18,707 bases of DNA, taken from Chrysochromulina parva. Lineage: Eukaryota > Haptophyta > Prymnesiales > Chrysochromulinaceae. Where the stretch lies: assembly GCA_002887195.1 (NCBI GenBank), contig PJAB01000963.1, positions 1-18,707 on the forward strand. The letters run 5' to 3'. The translations under genes and the position numbers were made by a program. Of the stretch, positions 339 through 15,619 are shown piece after piece; within the stretch, counting starts at the first letter, position 1; every line of letters starts with the position of its first letter. A model generated the notes under the pieces. The model saw only the letters and a program-made list of their open reading frames with translations. It did not search any database and was not told where the DNA came from.

Positions 339-1439
339 CTCTGTCCGCGATCTTCCCCGCCAGGACCCGAAGGCAGACGTCGAGGTGGCCGTGACGCACT
401 CGGACCTCAATTTCAAGGACGGCATGATCCTGCTCGGCCAAAAGGGCGTCGTGCCGCAGTGGCCGATCGTCGCAGGCATCGACTATGCCGGGCACGTGGT
501 GCACTCCTCGTCGACATTGTGGAAGGCGGGCGACCGTGTGGTGCTGACAGGCAACAAGGCGGGGCAGCACTTTGACGGCGGCTACTCGGAGCGTGCAACG
601 TGCCGAGCCGAGTGGCTCATCGCACCTCCGATGGGCCGTTTCGAGCTCGCAGAGACCATGGCCATCGGCACCGCCGGCGTCACAGCAGCTATGTGCGTTC
701 ACCACCTCGAGTGTGCTGGCGAGGTGAAGCCTAGCCACGGGCCGGTGCTTGTGACGGGCGCCGCGGGCGGGCTGGGCCAGGTGGCCATCGCACTGCTCGC
801 CGCGCGTGGCTTCGAGGTCATCGCCTCGACGGGCCGACAGGCTGCGCTCGAGACCCACTTGCGCGCCCTTGGCGCGGCGGAAGTGATCGGCCGGCTAGAA
901 CCGGACACGAAACCACTCTCAAAGCAGCGGTGGGCGGGTGTGATCGACGCGGTGGGCGGCAGCACGCTCGCCGCGGCCATCGCGCAGACGGCCTACCGAG
1001 GCGCCATCGCGAGCACGGGCGTTGCCTCGGGAGGTGAGCTGCTCTCCACAGTCTACCCCTTCATCCTCCTTTACAGTCTCCTTCCAGCTCTCCACAGTCT
1101 ACCCCTTCATCTCTGAGTGCATCTCGATTGCCTCCCTCATCAGGTGAGCTGCTCTCCACAGTCTACCCCTTCATCCTCCGCGGCGTGCGCCTGCTTGGCG
1201 TCGATTCGACCCTGCCATGGGACTTGGAAGGGTACCCGATGGAAAGGGAGCGCTGGGTCGAGTGGCAGCGCGAGCGGCGCATTGTTTGGGAGTTGCTCGC
1301 TGAGTCGCTCTCGCCGCAGGCTCTCGCGCTGGTCACCGCCGAGACGATCGGGCTCGAGCACGTCATCAGCTACGCACCGCGCATCCTAAAGGGTGAGACG
1401 GCGGGCCGCGTGGTCGTCGACGTGAGCGGAGGGGCTTGA
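193..1439 (+). CDS. acuI: Acrylyl-CoA reductase-like zinc-independent MDR oxidoreductase (AcuI/YhdH family), one intron
   Basis: Exons are 193-1033 and 1144-1439, with a phase-1 GT-AG intron, giving 378 residues. The family consists of NADPH-dependent medium-chain reductases without catalytic zinc; bacterial AcuI reduces acryloyl-CoA to propionyl-CoA. Family landmarks are visible: SDLNFKDGMILLG, then PIVAGIDYAG, the Rossmann loop VLVTGAAGGLGQVA near residues 184-197 followed by a STGR nucleotide-binding segment, WAGVIDAVGG, and across the splice GG|ELLSTVYPFILRGVRL then GVDS, which aligns without a gap to bacterial YhdH. Bacterial members have about 324 residues. The extra N-terminus from ATG 193 (MLRRLVVRRQRPLIHGLGR) is Arg-rich and free of acidic residues, like a mitochondrial presequence. 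An ATG at 52 is in frame and would add 47 residues, but its codon use is poor, so 193 is preferred. The substrate is inferred from the family. Confidence 0.9.
1032..1179 (+). repeat. Direct repeats around AG|GT in the reductase gene
   Basis: Copy A is 1032-1069 and copy B is 1142-1179, offset 110 bases, 38 identical bases beginning AGGTGAGCTGCTCTCCACAG. A third, partial copy at 1088-1111 matches 1042-1065 base for base. Copy A supplies the splice donor. Copy B supplies the last two intron bases and the beginning of exon 2. Confidence 0.9.
1034..1143 (+). other. Intron of the reductase gene carrying copies of the downstream exon start
   Basis: The intron is 110 bases, donor G|GTGAG at 1034 and acceptor CATCAG ending at 1143. 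Splicing restores the reductase frame exactly and joins conserved family sequence. Bases 1032-1069, including the donor, are identical to 1142-1179, which span the acceptor and the start of exon 2 (38 of 38 bases). A further 24-base identical copy (CTCTCCACAG onward) lies at 1088-1111, and a degenerate copy at about 1066-1083. Unspliced reading meets a stop at 1114-1116. Confidence 0.85.
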
Positions 1440-4248: not shown

Positions 4249-4448
4249 GTTGGTTTTCAAGTTATTTCAAGTTTCGTCACGTGTCGTGAGGCTTCACAGA
4301 GGGTCTTCGAGCAGAGGGCGTCAAGGCGTGCGCTCCCGAACCATGTACATGTAACAAAGTGAACATAGAAGTTTCCAGAAGCGAAATCTCCGAGGATCCC
4401 AGACTTTTCAGGAATCTTTTTGATCTTTTTTCTATCTTCGCAGCGTGC
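4249..4448. promoter_or_regulatory. Divergent promoter region with a CACGTG palindrome
   Basis: The EF-hand start codon (4248, minus) and the proposed UDP-glucose pyrophosphorylase start codon (4449, plus) point away from each other across 200 bases. A perfect CACGTG (G-box/E-box core) sits at 4278-4283, 30 bases from the EF-hand ATG. A T-rich stretch at 4417-4435 precedes the pyrophosphorylase ATG. Binding by a bZIP or bHLH factor is only a possibility. Confidence 0.35.
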
Positions 4449-6236
4449 ATGGTACGACTTGACGCCCGATGCGCTGTCGCGGACCGTTGGCTCACTTCAG
4501 CCGATAGACGCCAGTCTTAGCGCCCTACTGCTGCTGCCGGCATCGCTTTTCTCCGCTCACCGCCCTCTTCCGTCGCGCTCTGCAGGCTGAGTCGAACATC
4601 GCATATCTGCAGCGTTTCGATCTCGAGAAGAAGATCGCTGAGGTGAGAGGGTGCCTCCCTTGCGGCCAGCTCCGGTCACGGCGCCGACTGCCACCGCCAC
4701 GCGATGCCTCGACCTTCACGCGCGCCCTCCTAAACCCTACCGCAGGTCGTTGCTGCGACACTCAAGGAGCGTCCCGCTGATCCCTTCACCTTCATCGCCA
4801 ACTACCTCCTCAAAGCTTCGAAGATGGAAACCCCCGAGAACGAGAAGTTCACAGCGCTCTGGCCCTCGTATGAGCAGAAGATGACGGCCGACGGCATGAA
4901 CAGCGCCGCCCAAAACGCCTTCAAGTACAACTTCAAGGTGCTCACGTCGGGCGCCGACCTTATGATCCCTGAGTCGAGCATCGAGCCGGTGGATAGCCTT
5001 CCTGACTACGCGGCGCTCACCGCCGAGAACCCCGCGCTGCTCGAGAGCTGCGTCATGGTGAAGCTCAACGGCGGTCTGGGCACGGGCATGGGCCTTGAGA
5101 AGGCCAAATCGCTACTTGATCTGAAGCAGGGCAAGACCTTCCTAGACTTCATTGCCCTCCAAGTCGAGCAGATGCGCGACGTGTACAAGAAGCCGCTCGC
5201 GTTCATGCTCATGAACTCGTTCGCCACCTCGGCGGACACGCTCGAGTACCTGGCCAAGTACCCGACGCTCCAGTCCGAGGGTCTGCCCCTCGAGTTCCAG
5301 CAGAACAAGGCGCCCAAGATCACCAAGGACGACCTGACGCCCGCCTCGTGGCCCGCAAAGCCAGAGTGCGAGTGGTGCCCGCCCGGCCACGGCGACCTGT
5401 ACCCGGCGATGGTGGGCACGGGCACGCTCGATGCGCTGCTCGCCAAGGGATACAAGTATATGTTCGTCTCCAACTCGGACAACCTAGGCGCTACGATGGA
5501 TCTCAAGCTCCTCACCTGGTTCGCAGCGTCCGGCTCGCCCTTTGCGATGGAGTGCGCCGAGCGCACCGACGCGGATAAGAAGGGCGGCCACCTGGCCAAG
5601 GCCAAGGGCGGTGGCCTGCTGCTGCGCGAGGCTGCGCAGTGCCCCGACGCGGACGAAAAGGAGTTCCAAAACGTGGGCAAGTACAAGTTCTTCAACACGA
5701 ACAACCTGTGGGTCAACCTCGAGGAACTTAAGGCGGCGTTCACCAAATTCGACGGCGCGCTCCCTCTGCCGGTCATCAAGAACGGCAAGACGGTCGACCC
5801 GCGCGACAAGGCGTCCACCAAGGTGCTGCAGCTCGAGACGGCGATGGGTTCGGCCATCTCGGCCTTCCCGACGGCGGCCGCGATCCTTATCCCGCGCACG
5901 CGCTTCGCACCGGTCAAGACGACAGCCGACATGCTCGCGCTCATGTCGGACGCGTATGAGGTCACCACCGACCTGCGCATGGTGCTCAGGGAGGAGTGCA
6001 AGGGCGTGCCGCCGACGATCAAGCTCGACGACGCATACAAGTTCGTCGACCAGCTGAAGAAACTCGTCCCCGGCGCGCCGCCCTCCCTGATCAAGTGCAA
6101 GAAGCTCACCGTTGAGGGCGCGAACATCGAGATGGAGGACGGCGTGGTCATCGAGGGCTCCGTCAAGATTACCAATGCGTCGGGTGAGCCCAAGAAGCTG
6201 ACTGCGGGCACCTACTCCTCCGACGTCGCCCTCTGA
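4449..6236 (+). CDS. UGP1: UTP-glucose-1-phosphate uridylyltransferase with N-terminal Dpy-30 motif
   Basis: Proposed exons are 4449-4451 (ATG only), 4586-4642 and 4746-6236, giving 516 residues. The enzyme makes UDP-glucose from UTP and glucose-1-phosphate for storage glucan, cell-surface polysaccharide and glycolipid synthesis. The nucleotide-binding loop KLNGGLGTGMGLEKAK is at about 126-141; GHGDLYPAMVGTG and VSNSDNLGATMD (about 235-272) form the sugar-phosphate and uridine site; NTNNLWV follows. The GMGLEKAK variant resembles the short trypanosomatid/bacterial type more than the plant/animal type. Residues about 5-46 (IAYLQRFDLEKKIAE joined to ERPADPFTFIANYLLK) are a Dpy-30 motif, a docking/dimerisation helix pair. 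The two downstream exons are well supported. The single-codon first exon is my best guess because no in-frame ATG exists between an upstream stop and 4586. An internal ATG at 4824 with good context could also yield a plain 470-residue enzyme. Confidence 0.88.
4452..4585 (+). other. Proposed intron 1 of the UDP-glucose pyrophosphorylase gene
   Basis: ATG|GTACGA at 4452 and a pyrimidine-rich acceptor GCTCTGCAG ending at 4585, 134 bases. The acceptor is strong. The donor directly after the start codon is inferred from the lack of any other in-frame ATG. Confidence 0.45.
4643..4745 (+). other. Intron 2 of the UDP-glucose pyrophosphorylase gene, inside the Dpy-30 motif
   Basis: GAG|GTGAGAGG at 4643 and CTACCGCAG ending at 4745, phase 0, 103 bases. 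Removing it joins the two halves of the Dpy-30 motif in frame. It has no exon-derived repeat. Confidence 0.8.
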
Positions 6237-7095: not shown

Positions 7096-10000
7096 TCATG
7101 TCGATGAGTCGGATTGCACCGCGGCGGGCGCGGGCGCCGCACCAAATCTGATGGACAGGGGGGGTCCTTGGATTTCCAAGCCGCCGTACGCGAGCCGATA
7201 CGATGGCTCACCCTCGGTGGGGGCGGCCACCGAAGGCGAGTCGGGATGGGTGCGGCTGCTGGTGGCGGGCGAGCGCATCCAGTCGTACCCCGAGCGTTCG
7301 GTCTCAGACGAGTCCTCCTGCTTGCCGACGGCGGCCGCGCGCTGCGGCATCGCGTGGAGCTCGAGTGATGGCGGCACGCTGTCCTTCCGTGCAGGCACGT
7401 TGGTGGCGCGGGCGACATCATCCTCGCGATTGATGTCCTCGCGGGGCTTCCGATTGATGTCCTTATCAGCGATGGCGAGGAAGATGGACTCGAGAGAGGG
7501 CTGGGAGGCAGAGTAGTCCAGGATCCCTAGTGCATCCTTGTGTCGTTCCATGGTCTCGAAGACCTCAGCGAGGCTCTTGCCGCCCGTCGCCTCGAACTTG
7601 GGCAGCTCGTACGTGAGCTTGCCGGCGTGCGACTGGTCGAGCCGAGCTCCCGGGAAGAGGCGCGCCATGCGTGCGGGCAGCGCCTCCGCCTTTGCATCGG
7701 CCACACGCATTTCGAGCGTGTACCCGCCCCCATACTTGGACTTGAGGTGCTGCTGGCCGCCGAGGCACTGTAGCCGTCCAGCCGTCATGATGCCGATGCG
7801 CGTGCAGAGCGCTTCGCACTCTTCCATAGAGTGGGTGGTCAGCACAATCGAGCGCTGCTTGCGCTCTCGCATGATGATGTCCCACATGTGGCGTCGTGAG
7901 ACAGGATCCATCCCACTCGACGGCTCGTCGAGGAAGACCACGGCGGGTGAGCCTACGAGGGCAATGGCGAGCGAGAGCTTGCGCTTGTTGCCGCCAGAGT
8001 AGGTGCCACACACGCGGTCGGCGTACGGCGTGAGTGTCACCTTGTGCAGCAGCTGCTGCACGAGCGATGGGATGCGATCCTCGGGCAAGTTCTTAAGGCG
8101 CGCGAACATGGTGAGAGTCTCTCGCGCCGTCATGAGCTCGAGCAGCGGATCGCTCTGCGGACAGTACCCCATGCGCTCGCGCACGCGTCGGATGCCATGG
8201 ACCACGTGGTAGCCTCCCAGCCACGCGCCGCCGCGAGATGGCAGATAGTCGCCCGTGAGGATCGAGAGAGTCGTCGTCTTGCCCGCGCCGTTGACGCCAA
8301 GGAAGCCGAAGCATTCTGTCGGATGGATGCCCAGCGAGAGGTCGACGACGGCCACTTTCGGCGCCGCCAGACCACGGCCGGGGAACACCTTTCGCAGGCC
8401 CGAGATGAGGACGGCCTCCTCGACGCCCGTGAGCCTCCGAGAGTGCTCGTCGTGCGACTTGACGAGCTCGGCGACTCGCGCCCGCTCAGCTGCCACGTCA
8501 CTCTCTTCATCGAAGGCTGTGCCGCCCTCGCGCTTGGTGAGCTCCGCGGAGGCGTGCGCTTCGGCCGTGCCCCCGGTGCGCCGCAGCCGGCGCTCATACC
8601 AGAGCACTCCGGCTGCGGTGCTCAGCACGATCGCGGCGAGAAGCAGCCCTCCACCCGGTTGTGTGATATTGCTGGAAAGCACGACTACGATCAAGATGAG
8701 CGCCGCGTAAATGGCGAAGCGCGAGCGGCGCGAGAGGTCGATAGAAGGCTCGCGCACGCCGCAGAGCAGCGCGAGGCACGGCTCAAGCTTGGCGTATGTC
8801 TGCGCGGAAGCCTCGATGCGCAGGAGCAGCAGAAAGTAGCCCACGGCCTCGAAGGACATGAGGAGGAGGGGTCGGCCGATCACCTTCCAGGAGAAGGGAG
8901 GTTCGGCGCTGCCGAGCAGCAGGCCCTGATAGTAGTTAGTGGTCAGGTTGATGACGGCCTCACCAAAATTGTAGCCGGGCAGGAAGCGGTAGAGCCAGAC
9001 GAGCGCCGCGTCAGCGGCTTGCGTGTTCGGGAGCTCCTTCATGATCTGGTGAGCGATGACCATCGCAAAAGCGGCGACGAAATTGAAGATGATGATCGAG
9101 ATTTGCGCCGTCGTGGGTGAGTCGAAGAGGAACGAGTAGCAGTAGACGAGCGGCAGCACCGCGATGCCGTACAGCATGAGCACGCAGAAGATGGCGGCGC
9201 CCTGCTGAAACGTTCCAATGAGCGAGGGCTCGTTGAACACCCGGAAGACGACCATGCACAGCGAGACCACGAGCAGGTACACGAGAAGGTCCCACATGAA
9301 CGTCGCGAGCCAGTAGAGCCGGGGGTTCGCGCCGGAGACGAGCTGCAGGTGCTTGGACTTGGAGATGCGCTCCATCACGACGAAGACGGCCGCCGATGCC
9401 GGGATGTAACAAAAGGGCACGAGCATGAAGATCGACGAGAGCAAGGCCAGGATCAGCCGTACCTGTGGGGAGAGGGCGCCGCGGTGAGCGCTCGCATGCA
9501 CTGGCTTGAGAGCAAGGCCAGGGTCCGCCGTACCTCAAGGGCGGACGGAGGCGCAATCAGTCGCAATCAGTCGCAATCAGTCGTTATCAGTCACAATCAG
9601 TCGCAATCAGATCAGTCGCAATCAGTCGCAATCAGTCGCATTCAGTCGCAATCAGTCGCAATCAGGGTCCGCCATACCTCAAGGGCTGCGCGGCGCGTGA
9701 GCGGCAGCGGCGCATTGAAGACCTCGTACTTGACTGGGCCGATCGGCGCACGGGCGTCGCCAACCACACCCAAATGCGGCGGTGGCGGCGGGTGCATCGC
9801 TGCGTGTGCCTCGTACCACGCCGACTGGCTCGCCTCGCCGAGGAAGACGGCCATCGCGTGCGCCGACGAGGTGTTGTGCAGCACCGTGAGCTGCACTGGA
9901 AGAGAGACATTGAGCCAGGGTGCCGTGTAGATGCTCGGCACGACACGCGCGTCGTACGTGAAGCCCGCGGCGGAGCCCGAGGTGCGAGTGTCCGCATAGC

Positions 10001-13000
10001 TCAGATTCACATAGGCGATCACGCTGTCCGAGAGCTCCAGGTGGCCGATGGTCAGGCGCATTGGGCCGGGCGGCGGCGGCGGCGGTGGCGACGGCGGCGA
10101 GGATAGCGAGGAAGAAGCCTGAAAGGTGCCAACGGCGGTCAGCTCCAAGTGGTTGACCTTGAGGCTCGCAGGGCCAAGCCAGACCATCCCGAGTCGAAGC
10201 GTGAGCTGGCGCAGGTTGAGCTGTTCACGGTCGCCTAATGTGGAGTTCTGGCCCGCCGCGTCGGCCGCCACGCCGGCCGCGGCCTCTGCGGTGGTCGGGA
10301 TGGTGAGGGGAGCGCCGTCGGCAGCCCAGCCGTCGAGGACGGGGCGGAGCGCCGTGAACGGGCCCGTCGGGTTGACGTCGGCGATCAGCGCGACAAGCTC
10401 GGCGAGGTCGGCGAGGGGGAGCGGGAAGTTCTCGATCGAGTGCAGTCGCACCTCGTTGCCCCGACGAACCCCCTCGAGCTCTGTGACGAGGTTGTTGAAG
10501 ACGCGGATGTACGGGAGCGAGCGTCGTATGCGATCCACGGTGATCAGGCTACTTGCCTCGGCTGAAGTCCAGCCGCCCACCACCACGAGCGCCGCGCGCA
10601 GTGCGAGTGTGAGCGCCTGCTCGTTGGCTGGCCGAACTAGCGAGCACGGGTAGGTGCTGCATGAGAGAGCGACTAGTAGGGGCGTGATGGGGTTGAGCGC
10701 GGCGCGCAGCTGCGGCAGCCACGGGTCGTACGTGATCGAGTCGAAGATGAAGCCGACCCCCACAGTCGCGGCGCGCCCAGCGCTGTCCTCGAGCAGCTCA
10801 AGCGCCGCCTCACGCAAAGGCTGCCCATTGACCAGTGCGCTGCCGAGGGAGTCGGCTGGATTCGCGGTCGCAAAGCCGTCGGCGCGGGCGGCGACAGGGA
10901 CGCCTGCAGCGCTCAGTTCGGCGTCAAGCACACTGACCTGGCCGAGCCCCGCGCAGATCAGATCTCCCGCTGGCCCAGTCCCGACGCCCGCACCGACGGC
11001 AGCGACCGAGGCGTTGTTGACGACCGCAGCGCCGAGGGCGAGGCCGGCGCTGACAGCGGGGCCGATCACCGTAGCGAGCGCGTCCGTGATCAGATTGGTG
11101 ATCAGATTGGTCGGAGCCGTGCCCACGACGACGCTGCTGTTGAAGCCACTGCTGCTATTCGATACGCTGCTATTGGACAGGTAGATGGAGCCTGCAAGCG
11201 CACCCGCCGCCAGGCCAGCGAGCCCCGAGGCTGACACGTTGAGGCCAGCGAGGGTGCCGTTGGCGCCCCGCACGAGCGACATCACGAGTGCTTCAGTGGA
11301 GGCGCTCAGGTTGAGGCTGGGAAGGAGCGCTTGCGCGACGATGCCCGGGGTCCAACCGACCAAACCGACACCGCCCGGCTGCCAGCGCGAGCACGTGAGC
11401 AACGCGACCGCGACGCCGCCCGAAAGGGCAGCGAGGTCCTCAGGATCTACGGCCGACGAGTTGCCGTTGCCCAGGAGCACGCCCTCCAACCCGCCGCCTC
11501 CAAAGTACAAGTTGAAGTGGACCATATCGCCCGCGAACGCGCCGCCCAGGCGAGTGGCACGACTCTGGTGATCGTTGTACGTCTCGAGCAGGTACTGGCT
11601 CAGGTTGTACGAATCGGCCGCGCCAATTTCTTGCCAGTCGAGGGAGTACGTCGAGTAGTGCCGAAAGAGCTCAGTGTCGCGCGCGCGGTTGGCCACGTGG
11701 AGCGTGGGCGGCTCCGGCTGCTCGCCCCCCCAGCGCGTGCGCCGATAGATGGATGCATGCATGCGGAGTGGCGGGCCGACGCGCGGGTCTTCCAAAGTGA
11801 GGATGAGCAAGATCACGGCGACGAGCCCCACAGGAAGGATCTGCTGCGTGAAGAAGCCCTTCTTGTTGCGCTTGAGGCAGGTCCACCGCTTGAGCAGCAT
11901 CACGAAGAGCTGCTTGCGCATCGGAGGCACTGACGGGGCTGCGTGCAGCTCGTCGTCTGTCACAAGGCCTGTGGGCCCGTCGGCGTTCTGGATGGCTTGG
12001 CGCGTCGACGATCCCTTCGGCGAACCTCTCAAATGGCTGAGCAGATTGAGGCTGGAACTCGAGGGGCGGGCGCGGCGGCTCTGTGCGCCCTTCGGGGGGG
12101 GCGAGATATCAATCCCGCCCTTCGGGGGGGGCGAGATATCAATCTCGGCCGGCTGCGGCGCCACCACATGCGACGGGGGCGAGGGAGGCGGCGTGGACGT
12201 TTCGCTCCCGACGGTGAGCTTCTCCACCGAAGTGAACTCGACGCCTTCGGGAAGCATCCGCGCCATTTCGTCGTCCGGGCCAGGGAAGGCGGTACCTTGC
12301 AGCCGCCTGACCGTTGGCCTGAAGCTCTTCGAGCGTCGCCAGCGGCGCAGCAGCACCACGTGCGTCTTGTAGCTCCGCAACTTGCGCCAGTACTTGCCCT
12401 CGGGGCTTTTAGCGGCTCCCCTGATCGCCGTACCGAGCACGGGCGGGACCTCGAGTGCGTCCAGGTCCTGCTTTAACATCGTGTACGTGTCCGTCGTCGT
12501 CGTCGTCATGGCCTTCCTGGCCGACACCATTGCAAGAGCCTCGTCGCCCTGCGCGAGCCGAAGGAAGACCTCCTCCATCGAAGTGACCGACATGCCGTAA
12601 GAGCCGATCCCGAGCGCCGCGCGAGATCGCTCGAGCTCAGCCAGCAAGGCGGCGAAGCGCGGAGAGTCCGAAAAGGGCAGACGGAACGAGAGCTCGTCGC
12701 CCGCGGCCGAGAGCACTTGCGCCTCGGGCACGTGCCGGCGGAGCGTCGCGTGCACGGCTCGCGTGATCGCGTCGGACGCCTTGCCATCGGCGACCACCAT
12801 CGAGAGGGTGTACCCAAGGCCAAAGCGCGACTTGAGAAAGAGCGACGAGCCACAGCACTGCAGCTTGCCCAGGTTCATGACGGCAATACGATCAGCGAGA
12901 AGGTCCGCCTCGTCCATGTAATGGGTAGTGAGCACGAGCACTCGCCCGGGCTTGGAGCGCTTGAGCAACTCCCACATTGAACGGCGCGAGGAGGGATCCA

Positions 13001-15266
13001 TGCCTGACGAAGGCTCATCGAGCAGCACTGCCTTCGAGCCGCCGATGAGTGCACAGCCAACAGAGAGCTTTCGCTTCATCCCGCCGCTCAGGGCATGCGC
13101 GCGCACATGTGCCTTCTCAGGGATACCCACCTCGGCAGCCATCGCACGTGCGGCGACGCGTGCGTGCTTCGAGGGCACTCCCTTGAGGGTCGCATACAGC
13201 TCGAGGTGCTCTTGCACCGTCAGAACAGGCCAGAGCACGTCGTGCTGGGGGCAGATGCCCAGCATGTTGTACACAACGGCGCGCGCTCGCGTGATCGAGT
13301 AGCCGAAGACGTAGCAGTCCCCCGTGGTGGGCGGGTACAGCCCGGTGAGCACTGAGAGGGTGGTGGTCTTGCCCGCGCCGTTGTGGCCGAGCAAGCACGT
13401 GATTTGGCCCGAGTAGAACGAGAGGTCGAGTCCCGAGACGGCGACCTTTTTGAGTGAGGTCCAATCCCCATACACCTTGCCCAGCCCGACGATCTCAATC
13501 GAGTCCGAGTTGCGGAGAGCCTCAGATGGCGGCTCGAAGGCGGGGGAGGTCGGCAGTGGCGCGCGCAGCCGCGACGGGCCGGGCGTGGCGCACGCCCACC
13601 ACGACGGGCGCACGAAGAAGAGCGGGTGCTCGCGAGTGCCGTAGCGCGAGGGCAGCACGCGTTCAAGGTATAAGCCGAGCACCATGTAGAGGAATGTGTC
13701 GACGAGCATCATACCGAGCGAGGTTAGGAAGCTGTAGTCATCCTGCGCCCAGTTGCTGCGATTGATGCCGATCTCGGCCAGCTCGTACTCGGCGAGGATG
13801 TCCGCGCCAAAGGCGAAGGCCGTCGGCAGCGAGAGTGAGGCCCATAACTTCGCAGTTGTGCGCTCGTAACGGTTGGAGCCGAAGAACAGGTAGCGGGGGA
13901 GGAGGCAGCCGAAGAAGGCGATCGGCCCGACGACGGCTGAGAGGACGGCATTCGAGAAGAATACGGAGAGCAGGAAGGCAAACGAGATCGCGCCCAGGCA
14001 GAAGAAGCCGACGAAGACGAAGACGATCACGAAGGACGTCTTAACGACGAAAAGCTTGATGACGAATGTCGACAGGAGGGCGATGATCAAGAACTGAGAA
14101 AAGGCGGTGATCCACCATGAGGCGTACAAGATCGGGTCGCGCAGCCCCATGATGCGCATCGTCTGCTTGAGTCGCTGCTCCTTTTCGACCACGACTGCCT
14201 TCGTGAGCAGCGCCACGGGGAAGAGCTGGCACATGGTCAGCACCAGAGAGAGCATGAAGCTCACCGCGAGATAGAATTCGTTCTGGCTGTACGCGGCGGT
14301 GGGCATGGGCGCGGCGAAGGCGTACGAGGTGGGCGGCGCGTAGGGAATCGCGTAGCCCTCCCGCGCTGCCACATCGAAGGCGTACTCGTCCACGAGCGCT
14401 TGCAGCGTCAGGAAGCCCGAAGTAATGTACTGCTGATAGTCGGTGTCGAGCCCTCGGGCGACCCAGTTGTTGAGACGGTTCGTATTTGGTACGGTGGTGT
14501 AGTTGAGCCGGATGGAGACGCTCAGGTTGGCTGGATCGAGCTCGAGGAACGCGAGCAGCGCCCACGTGCGCTGCCCTGACGTGCCCTCGGAAATAGTTTG
14601 CAGTGCCGTCCGCTCATCGGGATGGAGGATCATGTCGATCGAGTTCAGTGTCGGGTGAGCCGCGCGCGATCGTGCGACAAAGTCGCGTGTGCGGTTGGTA
14701 TCGGGCGAGATGTGGATGTTCCCCGGAGTGAGGATGTTGCCAAAGAGCTGCAAGTACTCCTCAGCTTCGTTGAGGCGCTTTAGGTTCTTCGAGCCGAGCG
14801 CGTTGCGCACGCTAAGCCCTATTGAGAGGAATGTGTCAATGTTGAGCACGGGCAGCGGCCCGTTTATGATGGACGTGAGCGAGCCGCGCAGGCCAAACAG
14901 GTCAACGTTCTCGGTATTTTCGATCCCGCACTGTGTCAAGTTGGTGTTTAAGCTCGTCACCTCACATTCGCTTTGGGTGCCAGCCACCCCTGCCACCGTG
15001 GGCACAGCGACCCGCGCACTTCCGCTGACGAGTGGGCCGAGCGTGGAGATGAGACTGGCCACGTTGACCTCTGTCGAAGCATAGATACCCACGCCGTATA
15101 CCTCGGTCTCCGAGAGGAAGTAGCCGAGCACCAAGATGGATAGGAAGAGGGGCGGCGATAGGACCTCAGCGCACGTCGTTTTCGGCGCACGGCGCTTGAG
15201 CAACAGGTTCTTGCGCAGAATGGCGCCCAATTGCGAGTTGCCTCGCGCCCGTGTCGGTGACGACAT
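7096..15266 (-). CDS. ABCA-type full ABC transporter, two exons, 2651 residues
   Basis: Minus-strand exons are 15266-9678 (5589 bases) and 9462-7096, joined in phase 0. ABCA proteins move lipids or related amphiphiles across membranes. Order: membrane helix 1 at about 38-55, lumenal loop 1 at about 56-327, a helix group at about 328-545, nucleotide-binding domain 1 (Walker A GHNGAGKTTT about 625, signature LSGGMKRKLS about 725, Walker B AVLLDEPSSGMDP about 744), a linker with a repeated IDISPPPKG, helix 7 at about 1140-1160, a very large lumenal loop 2 to about 1863 rich in Ala, Ser and N-glycosylation sequons plus a poly-Pro run, a second helix group in exon 2 at about 1864-2130, and domain 2 (Walker A GVNGAGKTTT about 2250, signature YSGGNKRKLS about 2348, Walker B VVFLDEPSSGMDP about 2369). 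Both ATP sites look intact. The ATG at 15266 is chosen because the frame codon two upstream is GTG. Substrate unknown. Confidence 0.93.
9463..9677 (-). other. Intron of the ABCA gene with duplicated junction sequence and a minisatellite
   Basis: Donor CTTGAG|GTATGG at 9677 and acceptor CTCTCCCCACAG ending at 9463, phase 0, 215 bases. Reading through gives a stop soon after the donor. Splicing joins residues AALE to VRLILALLSS, the start of a membrane helix expected after lumenal loop 2. The intron contains a further copy of the exon1-exon2 junction and the decamer array. Confidence 0.88.
9551..9665. repeat. Decamer minisatellite inside the ABCA intron
   Basis: Eleven near-perfect units of TCGCAATCAG (ATTGCGACTG on the transcribed strand), with one extra half-unit ATCAG at 9611-9615. 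Variant units are at 9581 (TCGTTATCAG), 9591 (TCACAATCAG) and 9636 (TCGCATTCAG). There are no spacers, so this is not a CRISPR array. Confidence 0.95.
11086..11109 (-). repeat. In-frame 12-base duplication in the ABCA lumenal loop
   Basis: GTGATCAGATTG is repeated twice in tandem. On the coding strand it gives a doubled four-residue unit (NLITNLITD). It is a small length-polymorphism candidate in low-complexity loop 2. Confidence 0.85.
12086..12144 (-). repeat. 30-base in-frame tandem repeat coding IDISPPPKG
   Basis: 28 identical bases at 12087-12114 and 12117-12144, offset 30. The coding strand gives two ten-residue units, IDISPPPKGG and IDISPPPKGA, in the cytoplasmic linker after nucleotide-binding domain 1, preceded by AEID. 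Each unit contains a Ser-Pro that a proline-directed kinase could modify; that is speculation. Confidence 0.9.
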
Positions 15267-15619
15267 ACGCACAGCGGCTGCGCGCTCGCGCTCACGTTCT
15301 GCTTAGTTGCAGTCTGGTTTCACCTCAGAGTCTGCAAGCACGTCCACGCCATTGCCCGGAACTCGACCGGTATTCATACTTTCATAAGTTTGAAACTCAG
15401 AATGAAGATGTCTTTCCCCATCAGTGGGGCAGCGTCATGTGCACCATGTAGGTCGCGCGCCGGCGATTGCTGCGCGTACACACTCTGGGAGGGCCGGGGC
15501 TCTCACGGTGATGTTGGGAAGCGTGGGCTGCATGCTTCGGTGAGCGTTAGCGGTCTTCTTCACCACCCACTCATGCTCTCATGGTCAACATCGAACATGC
15601 GATCCTTTTCCCTCAAAAG
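15267..15619. other. Intergenic region: ABCA upstream region and DUF1823 3' end
   Basis: 353 bases between two minus-strand genes. It should hold the DUF1823 3' UTR and the ABCA promoter and 5' UTR. An AT-richer patch with AGTTTGAAACT (palindromic about its centre) lies around 15388-15398. No gene is supported. Confidence 0.5.

Follow-up and report, generated by a model that had tools for sequence, protein, structure and literature searches.

The intron that interrupts the ABCA gene on the minus strand of the window (the whole 18,707-nt stretch of Chrysochromulina parva DNA analysed here) is, with high confidence, the product of two nested insertions into a once continuous exon, a 3' splice-site cassette followed by a minisatellite element, each of which duplicated its target. 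That this anatomy holds and that the cassette was also copied from an existing intron and inserted is, taken jointly, still likely. Other introns of the same genome, which was surveyed as 45 Mb in 2199 contigs, look as if they were built in the same way. The anatomy, the membership of its parts in repeat families and the protein homology obtained after the predicted excision are all readings of the DNA itself, and we set them out below before turning to how the cassette may have moved.

The ABCA intron contains three copies of its exon junction

The ABCA gene was read as two open frames separated by an intron (Table 1). When nucleotides 9677-9463 were removed, the alignment of the predicted protein was uninterrupted at ALE|VRLIL for 11 of 12 homologues, hand-picked from 120 listed in the protein search; the twelfth, a fish protein, showed a 3-residue gap three residues downstream of the junction. 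Named organisms high in the protein listings included Prymnesium, Diacronema, Calcidiscus (taxid 127549) and Haptolina, which suits a prymnesiophyte haptophyte. From this homology we infer splicing at 9678/9462. Exon 1 also contains a perfect 30-bp in-frame tandem repeat at 12086-12144.

Table 1. Features of the ABCA and reductase introns in the window
Feature	Position	Strand	Basis or remark
ABCA exon 1 (from open frame)	9678..15272	-	listed start GTG at 15272 is putative; last codon GAG ends at 9678
ABCA intron, 215 nt, GT-AG	9463..9677	-	homologue protein alignment after excision, and coordinates
ABCA exon 2 (from open frame)	7096..9462	-	open frame and protein alignment
Copy A: end of exon 1 plus GTATGGCGGACCCTG	9663..9686	-	left duplicate of second insertion; inferred donor inside
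Minisatellite, 10-bp unit CTGATTGCGA, 11.9 copies	9552..9665	-	TRF
Copy B: ancestral junction GCCCTTGAG|GTACGG...CTCTC	9508..9542	-	right duplicate of second insertion and left duplicate of first
43-nt insert of the first event, between B and C	9465..9507	-	coordinates; exon sequence not continued
Family-2 3' splice-site cassette, 37 nt including AG, GCATGCGAGCGC...CTCTCCCCACAG	9463..9499	-	family matches
Copy C: AG plus first 26 nt of exon 2	9437..9464	-	right duplicate of first insertion
Intron of AcuI/YhdH-type (acrylyl-CoA-reductase-like) gene, 3' end CCCTCATCAG	1034..1143	+	spliced protein alignment
38-nt exact duplicate, left copy, starting at AG|GT	1032..1069	+	direct repeat
38-nt exact duplicate, right copy	1142..1179	+	direct repeat
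36 nt at reductase intron 3' end	1108..1143	+	shared exactly with contig C1881, where they end an intron-like stretch

A sequence-only reading of this DNA had reported that the middle of the intron holds a third copy of the gene's own exon-exon junction. The copy is real, lies on the minus strand and stands where that reading had placed it; recomputation returned the same identities that it had given, 23/24 between copies A and B and 26/28 between B and C. When the 211 nt remaining after removal of the minisatellite were dinucleotide-shuffled 500 times, the best 24-nt match did not exceed 19 and the best 28-nt match did not exceed 21, as compared with 23 and 27 observed. Our results also support two further proposals of the reading: that the middle copy, B, is a relic of the uninterrupted exon, and that the outer AG|GT pair was recruited from the duplicated segment as donor and acceptor, the spliced protein being restored.

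The mechanism it had suggested, a chain of tandem duplications of the exon, held only in part. An AG|GT segment is indeed duplicated, but the DNA between the duplicates, on which that reading was silent, consists of two genome-wide repeat families and does not continue the exon. Plain tandem duplication was therefore rejected for ABCA and, for the same reason, we take the copies to be target-site duplications left by two nested insertions. There is no need to invoke a cDNA copy of ABCA itself, the alternative offered earlier. A and B have two bases in common that differ in C (CGGACC, CTGATC), and A/B thus looks like the younger pair; these two shared bases lead us to infer that the insertion between C and B came first and that between A and B later. 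As speculation, the AG|GT of copy B at 9534/9533 might act as a recursive splice site.

The cassette between copies B and C belongs to a repeat family often accompanied by a copy of the downstream exon start

The part of the ABCA intron that runs from B to C fits the family pattern set out below: it is 71 nt long and comprises the 26-nt duplicate from the junction, the 43-nt insert and AG. The 3' end of the cassette, GGCGCCCTCTCCCCACAG, was found with at most 2 mismatches at 109 places in the genome, as compared with 4 for the reversed control. We examined 52 core sites, a subset of the family rather than all 109 places, drawn from 20 regions of the 109-place list, from the best matches of whole-intron searches and from loci chosen otherwise. 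Five of them, in which another core follows, were dropped, leaving 47 non-tandem sites.

At 34 of these 47 sites, a copy of the exon-2 start stood at the beginning of the intron, above the 99% level of a locus-swap null under which about 0.5 of 47 would be expected. The duplicates had a median length of 28.5 nt (IQR 21-35, range 9-50), the introns had a median length of 80 nt, and the donors were GT in 29, GC in 3, GA in 1 and AA in 1. Where the duplicate is clear, its first nucleotide lies at the junction, next to the CAG end of the cassette; the fixed 3' end of the cassette is itself partly built into the search motifs. Across the sites listed, what the introns share is their 3' part alone, the 5' part being the target duplicate. 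L091 and L092 hold apparent GC-AG introns in which the exon likewise starts with GC, from the duplicated target, which is what one would expect of a donor provided by the target. The exon-2 copy was absent from 13 of the 47 cassette sites; three of these (L075, L084 and L085) contain two cassettes or partial cassettes, an arrangement for which the simple model does not account.

The minisatellite between copies A and B is also flanked by duplicates elsewhere

A three-unit CTGATTGCGA pattern, allowing at most 3 mismatches, gave 557 overlapping matches in the genome and none for the reversed control. A comparison of unmasked array flanks, in which 21 of 95 arrays lay above the null, mostly reflected residual repeats; we therefore rely on a test of the 70 arrays that had at least 4 unit matches and sufficiently long flanks. 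A flanking duplicate above the 99% null, with a median length of 23 nt, was present in 29 of these 70 CTGATTGCGA-like arrays, 0.7 being expected; the 70 sit in 36 loci, several to a locus, and are thus partly non-independent. The ABCA array is one of the 29, among which AGG[TC] lay in or at the right copy in 19.

CURAY is a branch-point consensus, and CTGAT, which fits it, occurs inside the minisatellite units, both at 9552-9665 and in the arrays of L010-L045. Four loci (L013, L035, L014 and L017) have a mirror-like arrangement, with a GTGCGA-like start followed by a CTGATTGCGA array and the acceptor inside a copy of the exon 1 end.

A second intron in the window and a second cassette family

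The reductase-like gene on the plus strand contains an intron bounded by a long exact duplicate (Table 1), and its spliced protein was gap-free at the junction in the two alignments shown, to 1xa0 and 5gxe. The end of this intron, CCCTCATCAG, defines family 1: as a 10-mer it was found at 2360 places in the genome as compared with 28 for the reversed control and, when followed by GT, at 1469 as compared with 2. Within the intron, at 1087-1112, part of the duplicated exon stretch occurs a third time, perhaps through a later internal duplication.

Several tests weigh against the reading preferred here. A looser test covering both families found a junction-anchored copy in 57 of 151 motif sites (family 2, 14/26; family 1, 43/125), and in 77 of 996 other AGG[TC] sites sampled. 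Of 20 loci taken from CCCTCATCAG places without a following GT, only 3 had such a copy. AGGT was hardly enriched in the full set of local direct repeats (44 observed, 41 expected), which indicates that tandem duplication is common in this genome, whether intron-making or not. Near-exact tandem whole-intron units, spaced 65-80 nt apart with AG|GT boundaries, were seen in L046, L047 and L048 (contigs C43, C42 and C93); they may be chains of zero-length exons. Reading frames did not discriminate in this GC-rich genome, being open in 24 of 33 cases when spliced, 20 of 33 when unspliced, and 22 and 23 of 33 when the acceptor was shifted by 1 or 2.

The viral contigs scanned contained no family-1 cassette end. 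One of them, IMGVR_UViG_3300027760_000958 (L134), contained the family-2 end; its positions 4350-4554, at the contig end, align closely with the algal locus L024 and its open frames look phage-like. It is probably a mis-joined contig.

Some copies of introns carry exon sequence from their source genes

We searched the genome with five introns or parts of introns: those of L086, L082, L090 and the reductase gene, and the inner 71 nt of the ABCA intron. L086 and L082 had been selected after matches to L074 and L015 were noticed, and the other three without such a hint. For three of the five, the two preselected ones included, copies elsewhere contained exon sequence from the gene of origin; the other two queries, from the reductase and ABCA genes, showed no carry-over in the genome-wide search.

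The first 42 nt of the L086 intron match its downstream exon at 98%, and on this sequence evidence we take the intron to have been born in its own gene. Its complete 81 nt recur with 4 differences in the unrelated gene L074, between unrelated flanks; this copy starts at the 5' splice site of the source, the one case in which that was seen, and no target duplicate above the null was found at L074. L082 gave rise to two truncated copies: of the L082 exon, 19 nt are retained in L015, which also has an 18-nt duplicate of its own, and 12 nt in L115. L135 contains 16 nt derived from L090, which match the copy in the L090 intron and not the exon where these two differ, and has its own 20-nt duplicate (19 matching, by eye). 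In all four copies the match extends to the last nucleotide of the intron. Truncation at the 5' side with a fixed 3' end is thus present in the L082 copies L015 and L115 and in the L090 copy L135, outside ABCA; a whole-intron copy without a target duplicate is known from one pair, L086 and L074, and ABCA is not of that kind. Because the copies carry exon sequence of the source gene, the cassettes look as though they were copied from existing introns.

A proposed origin of the ABCA intron, and its rivals

We propose the following course of events. The ancestral ABCA exon would have run uninterrupted through GAGGTACGG. In a first step, a cassette of about 40 nt, with a branch-point-like motif, a pyrimidine tract and CAG, would have entered this exon right before GTACGG, duplicating about 26-28 nt of it (now B and C). 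With its 5' splice site provided by the left duplicate, the new intron would be removed as the cassette together with one duplicate, leaving the protein the same. In a second step, the CTGATTGCGA minisatellite element would have entered near the donor of this older intron, duplicating 24 nt (A and B).

As the route by which the cassette moved, we favour an RNA-derived copy of another intron, although we hold this only tentatively. The 3' part, or rarely the whole, of an existing intron would be copied, by way of the excised intron, into a new exon, with the copy's end fixed at the intron's last nucleotide, its 5' end variable and its target duplication variable. Splice sites as the limits of the copied unit point to excised intron RNA, and a fixed 3' end combined with a variable 5' end and a variable target duplicate resembles target-primed reverse transcription. 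A broader suggestion, which we make with still more reserve, is that the spliceosomal introns of this haptophyte are retro-mobile, their excised RNAs being written, whole or 5'-truncated, into exon DNA before G(T/C) with a duplication of about 28 nt. If so, the target would give the new donor, the 3' end of the intron would give the branch point, pyrimidine tract and acceptor, and fragments of former host exons on intron ends would record the jumps.

The carry-over cases that bear on the route are few, and one-ended DNA transposition is possible. The cassette might be a non-autonomous DNA introner, mobilized by a putative transposase that makes long staggered cuts, with one-ended copying taking host exon along. 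One-ended transposition can also yield flank carry-over, and the carry-over seen here is explicable in this way. DNA transposons usually give target duplicates of fixed length, whereas those observed here vary (IQR 21-35); moreover, the L074 copy begins at the 5' splice site of its source, although this is one case. Among the introner families described so far, the majority bear one or more signs of DNA transposition (PMC9860276), but we found no inverted repeat between 9300 and 9900. We regard this explanation as unlikely, though it is the strongest of the rivals.

A distinctly less probable account starts from a tandem duplication of the exon at AGGT, as described by Rogers, with filler DNA captured at the break and a minisatellite grown by slippage. 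AG|GT is duplicated at ABCA, local direct repeats of all kinds are plentiful, and the near-exact tandem units of L046, L047 and L048, at 65-80 nt spacing, would fit. Against it, the filler is one and the same cassette at dozens of places (109 matches, 47 examined), and the clear duplicates begin at the CAG end of that cassette. An assembly artefact, in which collapsed or mis-joined repeats created the apparent third copy, would suit an assembly of 2199 contigs with repeats at the site but is highly improbable, as A, B and C differ from one another and a JGI metagenome protein, P0001 (98% identical and perhaps from the same species), enters the 5' part of the same intron with the variant proper to copy A, ALEVWRTLIATDCD.

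Comparison with known systems

How new spliceosomal introns arise is a long-standing question that is still open, and traceable cases are few. The DNA described here reveals an intron's birthplace, the direction of copying and sometimes the previous host gene, which can be read because the mobile piece carries a fragment of the old exon. LINEs and SINEs, which insert by target-primed reverse transcription, leave copies in which the 3' end is fixed while both the 5' end and the length of the target duplicate vary. The copies described here share these three features. They differ in that they have no A-tail and that the cassette is the end of a spliceosomal intron; nor was a clear reverse transcriptase found, the sole such signal being five low-scoring RVT_1 matches, all barely above the curated cut-off.

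Many aquatic eukaryotes, a Chrysochromulina MAG among them, are known to contain introners (Gozashti et al. 2022, PMC9860276); the parts of that study drawn on here describe target duplications of 3-9 bp, a search for similarity near both splice boundaries and the filtering of low-complexity families. As with those introners, a repeat family makes introns in unrelated genes and a splice site is co-opted from the target duplication. Unlike them, the duplicates here are long (median 28.5 nt in 34 sites; 24 and 26-28 nt at ABCA), and the introns have just their 3' part in common, rather than sequence near both splice boundaries. A whole-intron screen of the type described in those parts would probably miss such a 3'-half class. 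Terminal inverted repeats, as in introners of the DNA-transposon type, were not found in 9300-9900. The introner elements of Amoebophrya, in the portion of the report used here, have 3-5 nt direct repeats together with inverted repeats 8-20 nt in length (PMC7789003); direct repeats at the exon/intron borders are shared with ABCA, but an inverted repeat was not found in that same interval. In the portions of the literature surveyed, we came across no introner for which target duplicates close to 28 nt in length are described.

Three other lines of work come close, again as far as the portions of these sources used here extend. Tandem duplication of AGGT gives introns, and a 24-bp AGGT repeat is described in fission yeasts (PMC4974935). 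As in that mechanism, proposed by Rogers, a duplicated AG|GT would serve at ABCA as donor and acceptor with the protein unchanged, but a foreign cassette or minisatellite, and not the duplicated exon alone, separates the duplicates. For 213 introns of several kinds, direct repeats 4-30 bp long, with a mean of 11.4 bp, have been reported at or near the exon/intron borders (PMC11782384); we likewise see direct repeats at intron borders, long ones included, together with a cassette family and carry-over, neither of which is found in the part of that report used here. Intron transposition by reverse splicing (PMC3443670, PMC3879977) is matched by the L086/L074 pair, in which an entire intron occupies a new site and no target duplicate is seen, whereas the other cases, being 5'-truncated and flanked by a target duplicate, differ from reverse splicing followed by recombination. 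On this evidence AGGT duplication and intron transposition each explain part, and not all, of the observations. Because each known mechanism accounts only for part, we class the ABCA element as a 3'-half introner with long target duplicates.
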